Below, piece by piece: positions 28,179 to 33,849 of a stretch of DNA of 35,536 nucleotides. Both the position numbers and the translations under genes were made by a program. Numbering within the stretch: the first letter of the stretch is position 1; each line of letters begins with the position of its first letter. The notes beneath the pieces were generated by a model, which was not told the origin of the DNA, ran no database searches, and saw nothing but the letters and a program-made list of their open reading frames with translations. Source of the DNA: an uncultured Bacteroidales bacterium (GTDB lineage Bacteria; Bacteroidota; Bacteroidia; Bacteroidales; Paludibacteraceae); assembly GCA_946403315.1 (NCBI GenBank), contig CAMIZK010000013.1:1-35536 (forward strand). The letters are read 5' to 3'.

Positions 28179-29768
28179 TTATTCCGGACGCATCGTCGGG
28201 AACAATAAAACCTCCTGTATGGTGGGCTGTCCGGTCATAAACATCGTCAGACGGTCGATACCGATACCGATACCCGAGGTCGGCGGCATACCGTACTCGA
28301 GTGCACGCATGAAGTCATGATCGATCACCATCGCCTCGTCGTCACCCTTGTCGGCTAACTTCATCTGCTCCACAAAGCGGTTGTATTGGTCAATGGGGTC
28401 GTTGAGTTCGGAATAAGCGTTCGCCAACTCCTTACCGTTCACCATCAACTCAAAACGCTCGGTCAGACCCGGTTTGCTGCGGTGCATCTTCGTCAGCGGA
28501 GACATCTCCACCGGATAATCGGTGATGAAAGTCGGCTGGATGAAGGTGCCCTCGCAAGTCTCACCGAAGATCTCGTCGATCAGTTTGCCCTTACCCATGT
28601 GCTCCGTATCTTCCACACCTAATTTCTTGGCCTCCACACGGATCTCGTCTTCGGTCATGGACGCCAAGTCCAGACCCGTCTTCTCCTTGATGGCATCGAG
28701 GATAGGCAGACGGCGGTACGGTGCTTTGAAATCGACCTCGTGGTCACCGATCTGCACCTTGGTCGTGCCGTTGACCGCAATAGCGATCTTCTCTAACAAC
28801 TGCTCGGTGAAGCTCATCATCCAGTTATAGTCCTTGTATTGTACGTACAGCTCCATGCAGGTGAACTCGGGGTTGTGGCTGCGGTCCATACCTTCGTTAC
28901 GGAAGTTACGGCCGATCTCATACACACCCTCAAAACCGCCTACGATCAGCCGCTTCAGGTACAACTCCGTTGCGATACGCAGGTACATATCTACGTCCAG
29001 CGAGTTATGATGCGTGATGAACGGACGAGCCGAAGCACCACCGGCAATCTGCTGCAGGATCGGGGTCTCCACCTCCGTGTAACCTGCCTCGTCGAACACC
29101 TGACGCATGGTGCGCAGGATCGTCGCACGCTTGAGGAACGTGTCCTTCACGCCTTCGTTGACTACCAAGTCCACGTACCGTTGACGGTAACGCTGCTCCG
29201 GATCATTAAATCCGTCATAAGCCACACCGTCCTTGTATTTCACGATCGGTAACGGACGAAGACTCTTCGCCAGCACCGTCAGTTTCTTGGCATGCACGGA
29301 GATCTCACCCATCTGGGTGCGGAACACAAATCCCTCGATACCGATGAAGTCACCGATGTCCAGCAGTTTCTTGAATACCACGTTGTACATCTGCTGCTCT
29401 ACGGTCAATCCACCATTTGCATCATTTGCACCATTTGCATCATTCGGCTCCGCAGGAGCTTGAATATCATCGCGGCTCACATACACCTGGATACGTCCTT
29501 TGCTGTCCTGAATCTCGATGAACGACGCCTTACCCATGATTCGTTTGGACATCAAACGACCTGCAATCCGCACTTCATCACCCGTGTGCCAGATACGTTC
29601 ACCATTTGCATCATTTGCATCATTTGCATCATTGTCCACGAAGTGGGCCTTAATTTCCGTCGAGTACCCCGTCACCACATATTCGGCTGCAGGGTAGGGA
29701 TCGATGCCCATATCCCGCATGGTTTGCAGACTTTGTCTGCGTACGATTTCTTGTTCAGATAATTCCAT
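28179..29768 (-). CDS. lysS: lysyl-tRNA synthetase (class II)
   Basis: RIMGKASFIEIQDSKGRIQVYV, FRNEGMDRSHNPEFTCMELY, GMPPTSGIGIGIDRL. Confidence 0.96.
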   Translation of the reverse strand: MELSEQEIVRRQSLQTMRDMGIDPYPAAEYVVTGYSTEIKAHFVDNDANDANDANGERIWHTGDEVRIAGRLMSKRIMGKASFIEIQDSKGRIQVYVSRDDIQAPAEPNDANGANDANGGLTVEQQMYNVVFKKLLDIGDFIGIEGFVFRTQMGEISVHAKKLTVLAKSLRPLPIVKYKDGVAYDGFNDPEQRYRQRYVDLVVNEGVKDTFLKRATILRTMRQVFDEAGYTEVETPILQQIAGGASARPFITHHNSLDVDMYLRIATELYLKRLIVGGFEGVYEIGRNFRNEGMDRSHNPEFTCMELYVQYKDYNWMMSFTEQLLEKIAIAVNGTTKVQIGDHEVDFKAPYRRLPILDAIKEKTGLDLASMTEDEIRVEAKKLGVEDTEHMGKGKLIDEIFGETCEGTFIQPTFITDYPVEMSPLTKMHRSKPGLTERFELMVNGKELANAYSELNDPIDQYNRFVEQMKLADKGDDEAMVIDHDFMRALEYGMPPTSGIGIGIDRLTMFMTGQPTIQEVLLFPTMRPE

Positions 29769-29933: not shown

Positions 29934-29963
29934 ATGAACACACATTTATGTGTGAAAGTGTGA
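29934..29963 (+). repeat. direct repeat, left boundary of island
   Basis: atgaacacacatttatgtgtgaaagtgtga; 28/30 match to 33820-33849. Confidence 0.85.
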
Positions 29964-30010
29964 GTTTGTGAAGAAAAATTAGGCTGGTTGAATAAAAAGC
30001 AAATTTATAT

Positions 30011-30041
30011 TTGCTCAAGTCATTTTTTTTTTGTAACTTTG
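30011..30041 (+). promoter_or_regulatory. Bacteroidota-type promoter followed by 5' hairpin
   Basis: TTG-N20-TAACTTTG, then gcaccc-gatttg-gggtgc (30041-30058). Confidence 0.65.
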
Positions 30042-30106
30042 CACCCGATTTGGGGTGCATAGCCAGTGCAAGACCCAATAGTAATAACCACAAATGACCA
30101 AAAAAT

Positions 30107-30385
30107 ATGGCAAGTATTCAAGACATCCATGCGTTAGAGGAGAAGATCTATGACGCAGTACAGGAGTACATCGACAACCCGAATGGGTATGAACATGCGA
30201 CATTGCACGTCTATTTAGACCGCGATGAAATGGAGTATCAAGCAGAAATGGAAGACAATCTGCAAGGATCAGAAGATGATGGAATCTATTCTATTGAAAC
30301 ACTCGTACGCGAGGGCGATGATGGTTTAGAGCCGGATAACGATCGGGCAAGTGACATTGCAAATAGTTGGATATTCCTTGATTAA
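30107..30385 (+). CDS. small acidic hypothetical protein
   Basis: 92 aa ORF with own promoter. Confidence 0.7.
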   Translation: MASIQDIHALEEKIYDAVQEYIDNPNGYEHATLHVYLDRDEMEYQAEMEDNLQGSEDDGIYSIETLVREGDDGLEPDNDRASDIANSWIFLD

Positions 30386-30531
30386 TTAACGAACCGCTCA
30401 ACCACAAACGACCAACAATGAGCGTAAACAACAGAACTATGGCAACGAGAATCCCAGCAGGTGGCGGCTTTGGTCGGCCTGTGGCATCTGCCGGGTGTTG
30501 CCTTTTAAAAGAATATAAATTCCACAACGAT

Positions 30532-30954
30532 ATGAGTAGTAAAAGTAATGATCAAGGGCGAGCATATGAGTTTGCTTGTCTTAACGAATTAGAAGAAGCG
30601 ATTAAACAATATCGCCCTGTAAACGTACTGCATAATAGCAGTTATGAGGCAGCAAAGTATCACTATGAAATGCTATCTCCGACACAGAAACAGACATTTC
30701 ACACGAGTGCTAAAGCCATGATTTCCTCCATCTTCGAGTGTGAACCGATGATGATAGAGACAACAAATGATGTATTAGAATTATTTATCCAGAAGGACGA
30801 AGAAGGGAAGAAAGGTGATGTGCGTGATATTATTATAGCTCGTTCTAAAGTGCAATGGGAAATAGGTTTAAGCATCAAACATAATCACTTTGCAGTTAAG
30901 CATAGCCGTTTTACCCCAACTACTTACAGAGAATATATATTTAGTGCTGCGTGA
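30532..30954 (+). pseudogene. HaeIII-type restriction endonuclease, N-terminal part only
   Basis: MSSKSNDQGRAYEFA...NSSYEAA...ELFIQKDEEGKKGDVRDIIIARSKVQWEIGLSIKHNHFAVKHSRF then divergent tail TPTTYREYIFSAA*; ORF open upstream to 30418. Confidence 0.7.
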
Positions 30955-31214
30955 TGGAAACATTTGATTATCAACATCAATTAATCCACTATAATGGTAT
31001 GGCTTTTCCCTTTGTGGTTATTCATGAGCCGCAAACTGGCATAGACCATATAATAAGCACAGAGGATTTGAGTGAGCAACTATTTGATAATGATAAAGGG
31101 GGCTATAAGTCTAAAGATGCAGAATGGATTGATGAAAAAATAACCTATTTCGTGCAAACGGCGAAAGATTTAGAACGTTCTTCAAAAGATATATTAGCAG
31201 AAATTTATGATTAA
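30954..31214 (+). CDS. hypothetical protein (cassette ORF 1)
   Basis: 86-87 aa, overlaps the stop of the REase fragment and the start of the next ORF. Confidence 0.6.
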   Translation: METFDYQHQLIHYNGMAFPFVVIHEPQTGIDHIISTEDLSEQLFDNDKGGYKSKDAEWIDEKITYFVQTAKDLERSSKDILAEIYD

Positions 31215-31713
31215 GTACCAATTTTTTCCTCGTTCGCGAGGTGTTACACAGGAAATTCAAGATATTATCAATAGTTTTAAGGCTATTGAAAACCAAATTG
31301 ATTCCGAAACAAGTGAACTTAAATCCAATGAAGTTCTCCAAATAGTGCGTCCATATCTGGAGCAGTTGCAATACACAGTAGAAACGGGGAAAGGAGTCAA
31401 TGAGAAAATAGACGTGCCGGTACTTTTTGGTCAAGATAACAAGATAGACAAGTCTTTCTATGCCGATGCTTTAAGTGCAGATGGACGCATTGTTGTCGAG
31501 GTAGAAGCCGGACGCGCAACAGAGAATAATCAATTTCTCAAAGACTTATTTGAGGCATGTATGATGTTTGATGTGGAATATTTAGTACTTGCTGTGCGCA
31601 ATGTATATCGCACGCATTATGATTTCGACAGAGTATATAGTTTCTTAGAAACGCTATACATTTCTAACAGACTTCACCTTCCACTTAAAGGGATTTTATT
31701 AATTGGCTATTAA
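31207..31713 (+). CDS. hypothetical protein, possible PD-(D/E)XK nuclease-like (cassette ORF 2)
   Basis: 168 aa; ADALSADGRIVVEVEAGRATENNQFLKDLFEACMMFDVEYLVLAVRN. Confidence 0.6.
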   Translation: MIKYQFFPRSRGVTQEIQDIINSFKAIENQIDSETSELKSNEVLQIVRPYLEQLQYTVETGKGVNEKIDVPVLFGQDNKIDKSFYADALSADGRIVVEVEAGRATENNQFLKDLFEACMMFDVEYLVLAVRNVYRTHYDFDRVYSFLETLYISNRLHLPLKGILLIGY

Positions 31714-31725
31714 ATCGAATCAACA

Positions 31726-32577
31726 ATGAAAGACGAAATAGTTTTATACCAGCCGAATGAGACCATCCAACTTGAAGTCCATTTGAAAGATGAAACCGTG
31801 TGGCTCACCCAGCAGCAAATAGCAGATTTGTTTGGTGTAAAGCAGCCTGCGATTTCAAAACACATCGCAAACATCTATAAATCAGGTGAATTGGACGAAG
31901 AGGGCACGTATTCCATTTTGGAATATATGGGGCATGACGGCAAGCAGCTCTATACGACTAAGGCGTATAATCTGGATATGATTTTATCCGTTGGCTACAG
32001 AGTAAATAGTACGAATGCAACTCGTTTCCGTCAATGGGCTAATCGCGTCCTAAAAGACTATCTCCTGCGAGGGTACGCATTCAATCAGCGTCTCGCCAAT
32101 ATCGAACACCAAATGGACGAACAGCGAGCAATTCTAGCTACTCACGAGGAAAAGATTGACTTTTTCGTACGAACCTCTTTGCCGCCGGTAGAAGGAATTT
32201 TCTATGATGGAGAGATTTATGAGGCGTATTCGTTTGTGTCCGATCTTATTCGTTCAGCTAAAACGCGAATTGTGCTGATAGATAACTATATCGACGACCG
32301 AGTGCTAACCATGTTGGATAAGCGAAACGATGGCGTAAAAGCAACAATCTACACCAAGAATTTTACCAAACAATTATCGTTGGATATTGAGCAGCACAAT
32401 AAGCAGTTTGCTCCCATTGATGTTGAACCGTTCAACCTTTCTCACGACCGATTTATGATTATTGATGATGTCGTCTATCATATTGGTGCGTCCCTCAAAG
32501 ACCTCGGAAAAGCATGGTTCGCGTTTACCAAGATGAATGATATATCGGCTGAAGAGTTGCTGGGACGAATCAAATAA
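31726..32577 (+). CDS. RhuM family protein with C-terminal PLD-like region
   Basis: VWLTQQQIADLFGVKQPAISKHIANIYKSGEL...NLDMILSVGYRVNSTNATRFRQWA; C-terminal HDRFMIIDDVVYHIGASLKDLGKAWFAF. Confidence 0.9.
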   Translation: MKDEIVLYQPNETIQLEVHLKDETVWLTQQQIADLFGVKQPAISKHIANIYKSGELDEEGTYSILEYMGHDGKQLYTTKAYNLDMILSVGYRVNSTNATRFRQWANRVLKDYLLRGYAFNQRLANIEHQMDEQRAILATHEEKIDFFVRTSLPPVEGIFYDGEIYEAYSFVSDLIRSAKTRIVLIDNYIDDRVLTMLDKRNDGVKATIYTKNFTKQLSLDIEQHNKQFAPIDVEPFNLSHDRFMIIDDVVYHIGASLKDLGKAWFAFTKMNDISAEELLGRIK

Positions 32578-32580
32578 TAA

Positions 32581-33126
32581 TTTAACAAGATACCACAAGA
32601 CCGGAAACGAGTGTTTGTGGTCGGTATTCGTCAGGAACTCAATAAAGCCTGTTTGCTGCCAAACCCCACTACGGAACATCCCATTACGCTTCGGCAGGCA
32701 ATAGGAGACATAAAAGAACAACCTCAATTCTATTCTGAGAAAGATGTAGTAAATCAGCAGTACACAAGTGTCCTAAATCACGATGTCTATAATGGCACAT
32801 ACGATGCTCGTTTCATGGCGCGTAATCGTGTGCGTAGTTGGGATGAGGTTTCGTTTACTATACAGGCACAAGCGAAGAATGAGCCATTACATCCACAAGC
32901 ACCAAAGATGCAGTTTGTGTCTGCTGATAAACGCATATTTGCAAAAGGTTCAGAGCATCTGTATAGACGGTTAAGTGTCAGAGAGTGTGCAAGAATACAA
33001 ACATTTCCGGATAGCTTCCGTTTTGTGTATTCAAACATACTGGATGGCTATAAGATGGTAGGAAATGCCGTTCCACCGCGGTTAGCAGAACAGATAGCAT
33101 TGTGGATTAAGAACACGTTAAAATAA
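32581..33126 (+). pseudogene. C5-cytosine methyltransferase (M.HaeIII-like), C-terminal half only
   Basis: Frame opens right after the RhuM stop: [16 protein letters not shown]...[21 protein letters not shown]...LHPQAP...[21 protein letters not shown]...[15 protein letters not shown]; no N-terminal SAM or PCQ catalytic motifs. Confidence 0.85.
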
Positions 33127-33151
33127 ACAATTAGAATAGAATATAGTAAAA

Positions 33152-33186
33152 GAAAAAACCACATCGGTCTTCACAGAGGGATGTGG
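33152..33186 (-). terminator. rho-independent terminator, minus strand
   Basis: Minus: CCACATC-loop-GATGTGG-TTTTTT. Confidence 0.85.
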
Positions 33187-33259
33187 GGACACTTTACAAA
33201 TTTTAAGTGTAAAATTTATGTATTATGTCACAATTTTACGCAAAGGCTGCGCAAAAAGT
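33152..33259 (-). ncRNA. candidate small non-coding RNA (~108 nt)
   Basis: Consensus promoter at 33264-33295 (minus), canonical terminator at 33152-33186, no ORF between. Confidence 0.55.
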
Positions 33260-33263
33260 TGCG

Positions 33264-33295
33264 CAAAGGTACTACTTTTTTTTGATATGTGCAAA
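33264..33295 (-). promoter_or_regulatory. Bacteroidota-type promoter, minus strand
   Basis: TTTG-N20-TACCTTTG on the minus strand. Confidence 0.7.
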
Positions 33296-33393
33296 TTTTA
33301 TTTGAAAAATGAGTAAAATTTCTACAATTATTTGCATATATTAGAAAAAAAGTGTATCTTTGCAGAAAAATTAACCCTTAATTCTTAAATGTT

Positions 33394-33813
33394 ATGATTG
33401 ACAAGAGATTCTTTCAACTTGGAAAAATTTTATTTTTAGTATTCCTGTTTACAATATGCGGCAAGCCAAGTATGTATGCAGAAACTAAAGAGATGACACT
33501 TCATGTCGGGTATCACTTATGGGGGACTTCGTCCATAGTAGAAATAGCACCGATCAATGATCAAGTTGTAAAATTGGTAGTATTAGATGAACTGAGTTCA
33601 AATAAGTATGTTGTCTATAATACAACGTACTACTACAAAAGGGGGCAAAAAATTTATCGTCAACTCAGTAATTTAACAAATTCGTATTATTTCTTTCCTC
33701 TAGAACAGTATAAGGGAGTTAAAAACCCATCAGATCGTATTATTACAATACAATCATTCGGCTACAATTATATCAATATAAAAATAGAGGAAGTGTCTCA
33801 ATCAGAACAGTAA
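33394..33813 (+). CDS. hypothetical secreted protein
   Basis: Signal peptide MIDKRFFQLGKILFLVFLFTICGKPSMYA; promoter TATCTTTG upstream. Confidence 0.65.
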   Translation: MIDKRFFQLGKILFLVFLFTICGKPSMYAETKEMTLHVGYHLWGTSSIVEIAPINDQVVKLVVLDELSSNKYVVYNTTYYYKRGQKIYRQLSNLTNSYYFFPLEQYKGVKNPSDRIITIQSFGYNYINIKIEEVSQSEQ

Positions 33814-33819
33814 CACATG

Positions 33820-33849
33820 ATGAACCCACATTTTTGTGTGAAAGTGTGA
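33820..33849 (+). repeat. direct repeat, right boundary of island
   Basis: atgaacccacatttttgtgtgaaagtgtga. Confidence 0.85.

Follow-up and report, generated by a model that had tools for sequence, protein, structure and literature searches.

The window, which is the whole 35,536-nucleotide stretch of DNA from an uncultured Bacteroidales bacterium analysed here, a member of the rumen community, carries two pieces of a HaeIII-type restriction-modification (R-M) operon with a block of three other genes between them. This arrangement raises the question of what kind of genetic unit took the place of the middle of the operon, and by which route. The features concerned are listed below, where R is a restriction endonuclease (REase) gene, M is a methyltransferase (MTase) gene, and L numbers denote comparison loci.

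29934..33849, no strand: low-G+C island spanning about 3.9 kb, flanked by lysS and a DUF3987 gene, with direct repeats at both ends
30107..30385, + strand: small gene (92 aa) 5' of R', with an 80% identical copy in L012
30532..30954, + strand: R', N-terminal fragment of a HaeIII-type REase, from its PF09556 match and sequence
30916..30953, + strand: leader of about 38 bp without R homology, 5' of ORF A, from the end of the R match to the start at 30954 of the DNA common with L009/L010
30954..31214, + strand: ORF A (86 aa), fast-diverging partner of the A1 family, with homologs beside B in many loci and an AlphaFold model
31207..31713, + strand: ORF B (168 aa), predicted BamHI/BglII/OkrAI-like PD-(D/E)XK nuclease with ExE, from 60 homologous loci, invariant residues and a fold match
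31726..32577, + strand: RhuM-family gene (PADLOC PDC-S05), optional third cassette gene, full-length match to PDLC04879
32581..33126, + strand: M', C-terminal portion, beginning at motif VIII, of a HaeIII-like C5 MTase, assigned with PF00145; nearest to M2 of intact operons

We compared the two outer fragments with profiles of the complete proteins. R' (30532-30951, 140 aa) matched only positions 1-120 of 298 of PF09556 (RE_HaeIII) with an E value of 4.5e-43, and M' (32584-33123) matched only positions 149-322 of 324 of PF00145 (DNA_methylase) with an E value of 2.7e-32; M' is without the N-terminal half, and the SAM-binding and PCQ motifs are absent. This was the profile search proposed in the preliminary description, and both fragments matched their profiles as it had anticipated: an HaeIII-family REase that ends abruptly, a C-terminal part of an M.HaeIII-like enzyme without SAM-binding and PCQ parts, and hence a missing 3' part of R and 5' part of M. 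The same description placed the three-ORF block exactly between the breakpoints. The three ORFs are there, but the fit is not exact. The R homology ends at about 30915, and R' reads on through the leader to Ala-Ala-TGA, the last base of the TGA (30952-30954) being the first base of the ATG of ORF A; the M homology restarts near 32581, 3-4 bp past the RhuM stop codon. M' showed 62-64% identity to the intact M2 genes of relatives, and no second HaeIII-like MTase copy at the match level of M' was found elsewhere in the window's genome, a metagenome-assembled genome (MAG) that is 74% complete in 89 contigs. An intact HaeIII-type R-M system has a complete REase domain and a complete C5 MTase, and the window has neither. 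R' and M' are genuine fragments of HaeIII-/NgoPII-type GGCC R-M operons, and both should be inactive, with no working R-M system expected here.

Intact operons were found in relatives, as the preliminary description had suggested they might be, in the orders R-M1-M2 (L093, L094), M-R-M2 (L095) and R-M (L111). Intact M-R operons of another HaeIII-type branch (L099-L101) and intact M genes followed by an NgoPII-type REase (L103, L105-L107) were also found. The HaeIII and NgoPII REases are a textbook convergence on GGCC (PMC4081073), and the MTases of the two operon types are alike. Breakpoints could be aligned at other loci. The Bacteroidales locus L032 and the intact operon L105 are 90% identical on either side of a replacement, in which 339 bp (the end of M, the spacer and the start of R) gave way to a 720 bp cassette running from about 25 bp before the ATG of A2, a small partner gene different from A1, to about 5 bp after the stop codon of B. 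In L036, R picks up directly past the stop codon of B. The intact operons in relatives and these DNA-level breakpoints support the view that in the window A-B and RhuM took the place of the central part of a HaeIII-type R-M operon, and the anatomy of a cassette within broken R-M genes is well supported. Because some intact operons have the order R-M1-M2 and M' resembles M2, the window may also have lost an entire first MTase; with an R-M1-M2 ancestor, the loss would amount to about 2 kb and the gain to 1.6 kb.

The three genes of the block are all open and co-directional; A and B overlap by 8 bp, and RhuM starts 12 bp after B. Neither A nor B reached a curated cut-off in Pfam or NCBIfam, neither matched PADLOC, only chance-level matches were obtained with PHROGs, and B matched no sequence in the PDB. 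An alignment of 39 B proteins gave the invariant residues E59, D81, D87 and E98-x-E100. The AlphaFold model of B (pLDDT 87.6) matched OkrAI (E 1.2e-3, prob 1.0, TM 0.57), BglII and, more weakly, BamHI. The fold and the putative catalytic residues (D87, E98 and E100) together predict that B is a BamHI-like PD-(D/E)XK nuclease. B shares the predicted fold and an ExE-type active site with these type II REases, but has no detectable sequence similarity to them and no adjoining cognate MTase; as for B being the REase of a type II R-M system, no intact cognate MTase lies beside it in the window, and the MTase is broken or absent at the GGCC loci. With no profile match and a fold nearest OkrAI, BglII and BamHI, B falls in no known homing endonuclease family.

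The A1 family has a confident AlphaFold fold (pLDDT 95) that matched nothing in the PDB. The homologs of A are 23-64% identical to the window's A; some loci have A2 instead, and A1 or A2 is present in most loci. The RhuM protein matched PADLOC PDC-S05 (PDLC04879) with residues 2-281 on profile positions 4-283 of 285 (E 2.8e-126), and a RhuM of this kind travels with A-B only in the window, L009, L010 and L011. L009 and L010 lie at a different site in other species, and the DNA that they have in common with the window extends exactly from the ATG of A to the TAA of RhuM (32577), with nothing in common outside. These results indicate that the core of the recurrent unit is A-B and that RhuM is an optional rider in a few Bacteroidales loci, a point that the earlier name "RhuM cassette" misses. 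A second RhuM-like gene is present in the window's genome (G000:C7:39137-39480, 69% DNA identity over 344 bp).

Scanning a collection with one genome per species yielded 60 B loci besides that of the window. At 30 of these, B abuts pieces of HaeIII- or NgoPII-type R-M genes by BLAST, always on the strand of B; the other half are not in GGCC R-M operons. The 30 loci are not 30 independent events, as L035/L037, L028-L030 and L016/L022 probably share insertions. They are spread over several phyla, and the junctions in R and M differ between loci, without one conserved insertion site. The order is R 3-126, A-B and M 75-323 in L014; M 5-176, A-B, the remainder of M and then R in L037, where the split in M falls between motif VIII and the recognition domain; M 1-120, A-B and R 47-315 in L040; and M 1-257, A2-B and R minus its first 27 aa in L032. 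The R'-A-B-M' architecture recurs in the assemblies of L014, L018 and L026, and broken R-M genes beside B also occur in isolate genomes of Pedobacter (L035), Halpernia (L036) and Flavobacterium (L039, Flavobacterium filum). The loci with B proteins 96-98% identical to that of the window belong to MAGs of Bacteroidales from the rumen or reticulum. At R-M loci, 22 of 26 nearest upstream ORFs point in the direction of the cassette, compared with 13 of 22 elsewhere.

The association was evaluated against the frequency of the genes. Of 394 Bacteroidales genomes, that of the window among them, 18 carry a HaeIII-like M and 2 carry B, and the chance that a random insertion falls in such an operon is about 5e-5. 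Among 189 Selenomonadales genomes, an NgoPII-type REase is found in 18, among them all five that carry B (P 4.5e-6). Outside R-M operons, one Psychrobacter genome has A-B between leuC- and leuD-like genes, where 39 relatives match both flanks without the cassette, and at another non-R-M locus A-B lies before pyrH, downstream of tsf; the housekeeping genes at these sites are unbroken. Since A-B is found at many positions inside the GGCC R-M operons of several phyla, as well as at sites between housekeeping genes, insertion into GGCC R-M is a pattern of the nuclease gene and not a hotspot of the window's genome. Of the earlier suggestion that one defence module replaced another at an R-M hotspot, the replacement thus stands and the hotspot does not.

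A mobile element with its own transposase was considered and rejected: no transposase was found among the ORFs, terminal repeats surround only the whole island and not the A-B unit, and B is nearly absent from the phage, plasmid and viral sets (no match in the phage collection, one in plasmids and two in viral contigs). An IS200-like (Y1) transposase gene lies 0.2 kb 3' of B in L068.

GGCC occurs 4 times in the B genes against 28.5 expected; after adjustment for the hosts the counts are 7 against 14.3 (P 0.026, the loci being non-independent), and the low GGCC content mostly follows the hosts. The observed-to-expected ratio of GGCC is 0.00-0.06 in Selenomonadales R-M carriers and 0.02-0.36 in those with B; at 0.58-0.61, the value for the window's genome is unremarkable. 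In L155-L172, which are Selenomonadales with a GGCC REase and no B, GGCC in coding sequences is 0.00-0.06 of expectation, compared with 0.43-0.59 in four genomes with neither gene. We therefore rejected, for the window, the idea of B as an MTase-less GGCC cutter from which the host is safe through site avoidance: avoidance tracks R-M carriage as much as B, and the window's genome is not exceptional. Being tied to hosts and R-M carriage, GGCC avoidance is uninformative on the target of B itself.

We tentatively favour the explanation that A-B is a compact mobile nuclease gene pair, like a free-standing homing endonuclease, that has repeatedly invaded GGCC R-M operons, because its anatomy parallels that of the free-standing homing endonucleases of phage T4. 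In the T4 case, start codons overlap stop codons, host genes are split, and repair is illegitimate and one-sided, involving microhomology and resection (PMC2988022). A-B shares with mobE, mobA and seg of T4-like phages a compact nuclease gene without mobility genes, a start codon that overlaps the upstream stop codon, and insertion between or inside conserved genes, which are sometimes split (PMC2988022). Such a nuclease gene, lacking other mobility functions and lying in or between conserved genes, is what is expected of a homing endonuclease. The T4-like enzymes are of the HNH or GIY-YIG type, whereas the predicted fold of B is BamHI/BglII-like; A-B differs further in having a small partner gene, in its bacterial hosts, in its GGCC R-M bias, and in junctions that are scattered and accompanied by deletions.

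In the proposed mechanism, A-B would enter a GGCC R-M operon and break M and usually R. The nuclease B would make the double-strand break through which the cassette enters, and one-sided (illegitimate) repair would produce the deletions and scattered junctions. A-B, apparently promoterless, would be expressed as part of the operon, often through the stop/start overlap with the truncated upstream gene, and A may restrain or assist B. In the window, the C-terminal portion of R and the N-terminal half of M would have been lost in the event, perhaps along with an entire first MTase. What the sequences show is that insertion and replacement recur, where the edges of the unit lie, that the orientation is common, and that M is broken. 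We count for it the 30 of 60 loci in GGCC R-M operons in one orientation, despite the rarity of both M and B, together with the edges at L032/L105 and L036, the unit common to L009/L010, the Selenomonadales bias, the insertions between unbroken housekeeping genes, and the BamHI-like predicted fold with its invariant catalytic residues. Against it are the scattered junctions, unlike insertion at a single homing site, the half of the B loci outside GGCC R-M, and the shared ancestry of some loci. We also know of no BamHI-like homing endonucleases.

A further proposal, possible but rather doubtful at present, is that A-B represents an undescribed bacterial family of selfish nucleases, built on a restriction-enzyme fold, whose speciality is to invade and destroy GGCC R-M operons across phyla (an R-M hyperparasite). 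In some lineages it would have settled down together with a modified NgoPII-type REase to form a two-protein unit that lacks an MTase. R-M systems are seen as mobile, addictive genes. If the proposal is true, a nuclease cassette that time and again inserts into and kills R-M systems of one specificity class would act as their natural predator. Broken R-M loci would then be easier to explain, and there would be a way, open to testing, in which a cell could safely lose an addictive restriction system. A and B are two gene families unknown to the defence-finding library used here, and our literature search of open-access papers gave no description of such a cassette. Mobile R-M systems in conflict with antagonistic endonucleases are likewise moving, mutually excluding defence genes, but in those cases R-M is the invader (PMC3031569, PMC8989522), whereas here R-M is the victim of the nuclease cassette.

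A-B could instead be a stand-alone pair of toxin/antitoxin-like or defence genes that spreads through ordinary illegitimate recombination, with R-M genes hit because they are dispensable, transcribed and located in defence islands. A small co-translated partner beside a nuclease is what such a pair would have, and A fits through its 8-bp overlap with B; AbiH or Abi_2 genes adjoin several loci, and the rider RhuM belongs to PDC-S05. This explanation does not predict the strong bias to GGCC R-M among all dispensable genes, and we regard it as rather unlikely.

A similarly unlikely explanation is that GGCC methylation and the nuclease B exclude each other, as they would if B were methylation-dependent, so that the gain of A-B would be survivable only if the same step destroys M. 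Clashes of MTases with methyl-specific nucleases have been described before (PMC2614495, PMC8989522). No intact GGCC MTase was found beside B in any of the 30 GGCC R-M loci, and of 19 B genomes searched only the MAG of L014 has one elsewhere; moreover, a GGCC MTase of this type and specificity is all that the HaeIII- and NgoPII-type operons share. The absence elsewhere in B genomes is nevertheless weak evidence, as few genomes have an intact GGCC MTase in the first place (18 of 394), and we dropped it as a test of incompatibility. Methylation conflict alone also leaves unexplained both the physical insertion into the operon and the intact HaeIII-type R without M in L037, L039 and L066, and L012 retains an intact C5 MTase of another type beside A-B.

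These intact R genes, which have all or nearly all of 61 invariant residues, could suggest that A-B, or B alone, shields the cell from the GGCC REase and takes over from M as the antitoxin of R, leaving M to decay; likewise, B overlaps an in-frame NgoPII-type R in L044, L050, L051, L060 and L062, where M is a remnant. Most of the NgoPII-type R genes immediately 5' of B retain the PD...ExK residues, but those of L044, L050, L051, L060, L062 and L118 have an in-frame deletion or alteration of the segment RELGRVNRxDPLGITxLRIRGMW, and L048 has a larger internal deletion. The B-associated R genes are polyphyletic, with 8 changes on the tree, at least 4 of them forced by well-supported branches; on this ground the loss of the segment looks repeated, although recombination could mimic it. 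With a conserved segment or larger pieces lost or altered, the NgoPII-type R beside B is probably not a working GGCC REase, and we rejected the intact R genes without M as proof that B replaces M. As the window's own R is broken and B retains its nuclease residues, replacement of M by B is very improbable. Misassembly of the window junctions, to which a MAG of this completeness and contig number is open, is scarcely credible given R'-A-B-M' in the independent assemblies L014, L018 and L026, broken R-M genes beside B in the isolates L035, L036 and L039, and an A-B-RhuM unit that ends at identical bases in L009 and L010.

The locus is embedded in an island with a G+C content of 0.34-0.43, compared with about 0.47-0.53 nearby. 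Its ends are 30-nt direct repeats (29934-29963 and 33820-33849, 93% identical) that are the only two close copies in the genome and are possibly the insertion footprint of the island itself. The copy of the 92-aa gene in L012 (4821-5084) lies upstream of an intact EcoO109I-type R-M system plus A-B, and a remnant of this gene is also present 5' of A in L009 and L010. Ala-Ala-stop ends the truncated upstream gene in frame directly before A or B in six loci, namely the window (30945-30954), L008, L011, L032, L035 and L037, with differing codons; this ending could mark the edge of an element or act as a C-terminal degradation signal. On the 3' side of B, a REP-like hairpin segment lies at about 100 bp in the Bacteroidota loci L035, L037, L039 and L040, and a third small gene (MGKYYVTTEFLYRSTTEI...) is found in the Prevotella-type group (L016, L018, L022, L025, L043 and L068). 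In the flanking lysS gene, a short in-frame 9-bp tandem repeat (NDANDANDAN...) is present near the N-terminus (about 29605-29640), with a second run near 29450.
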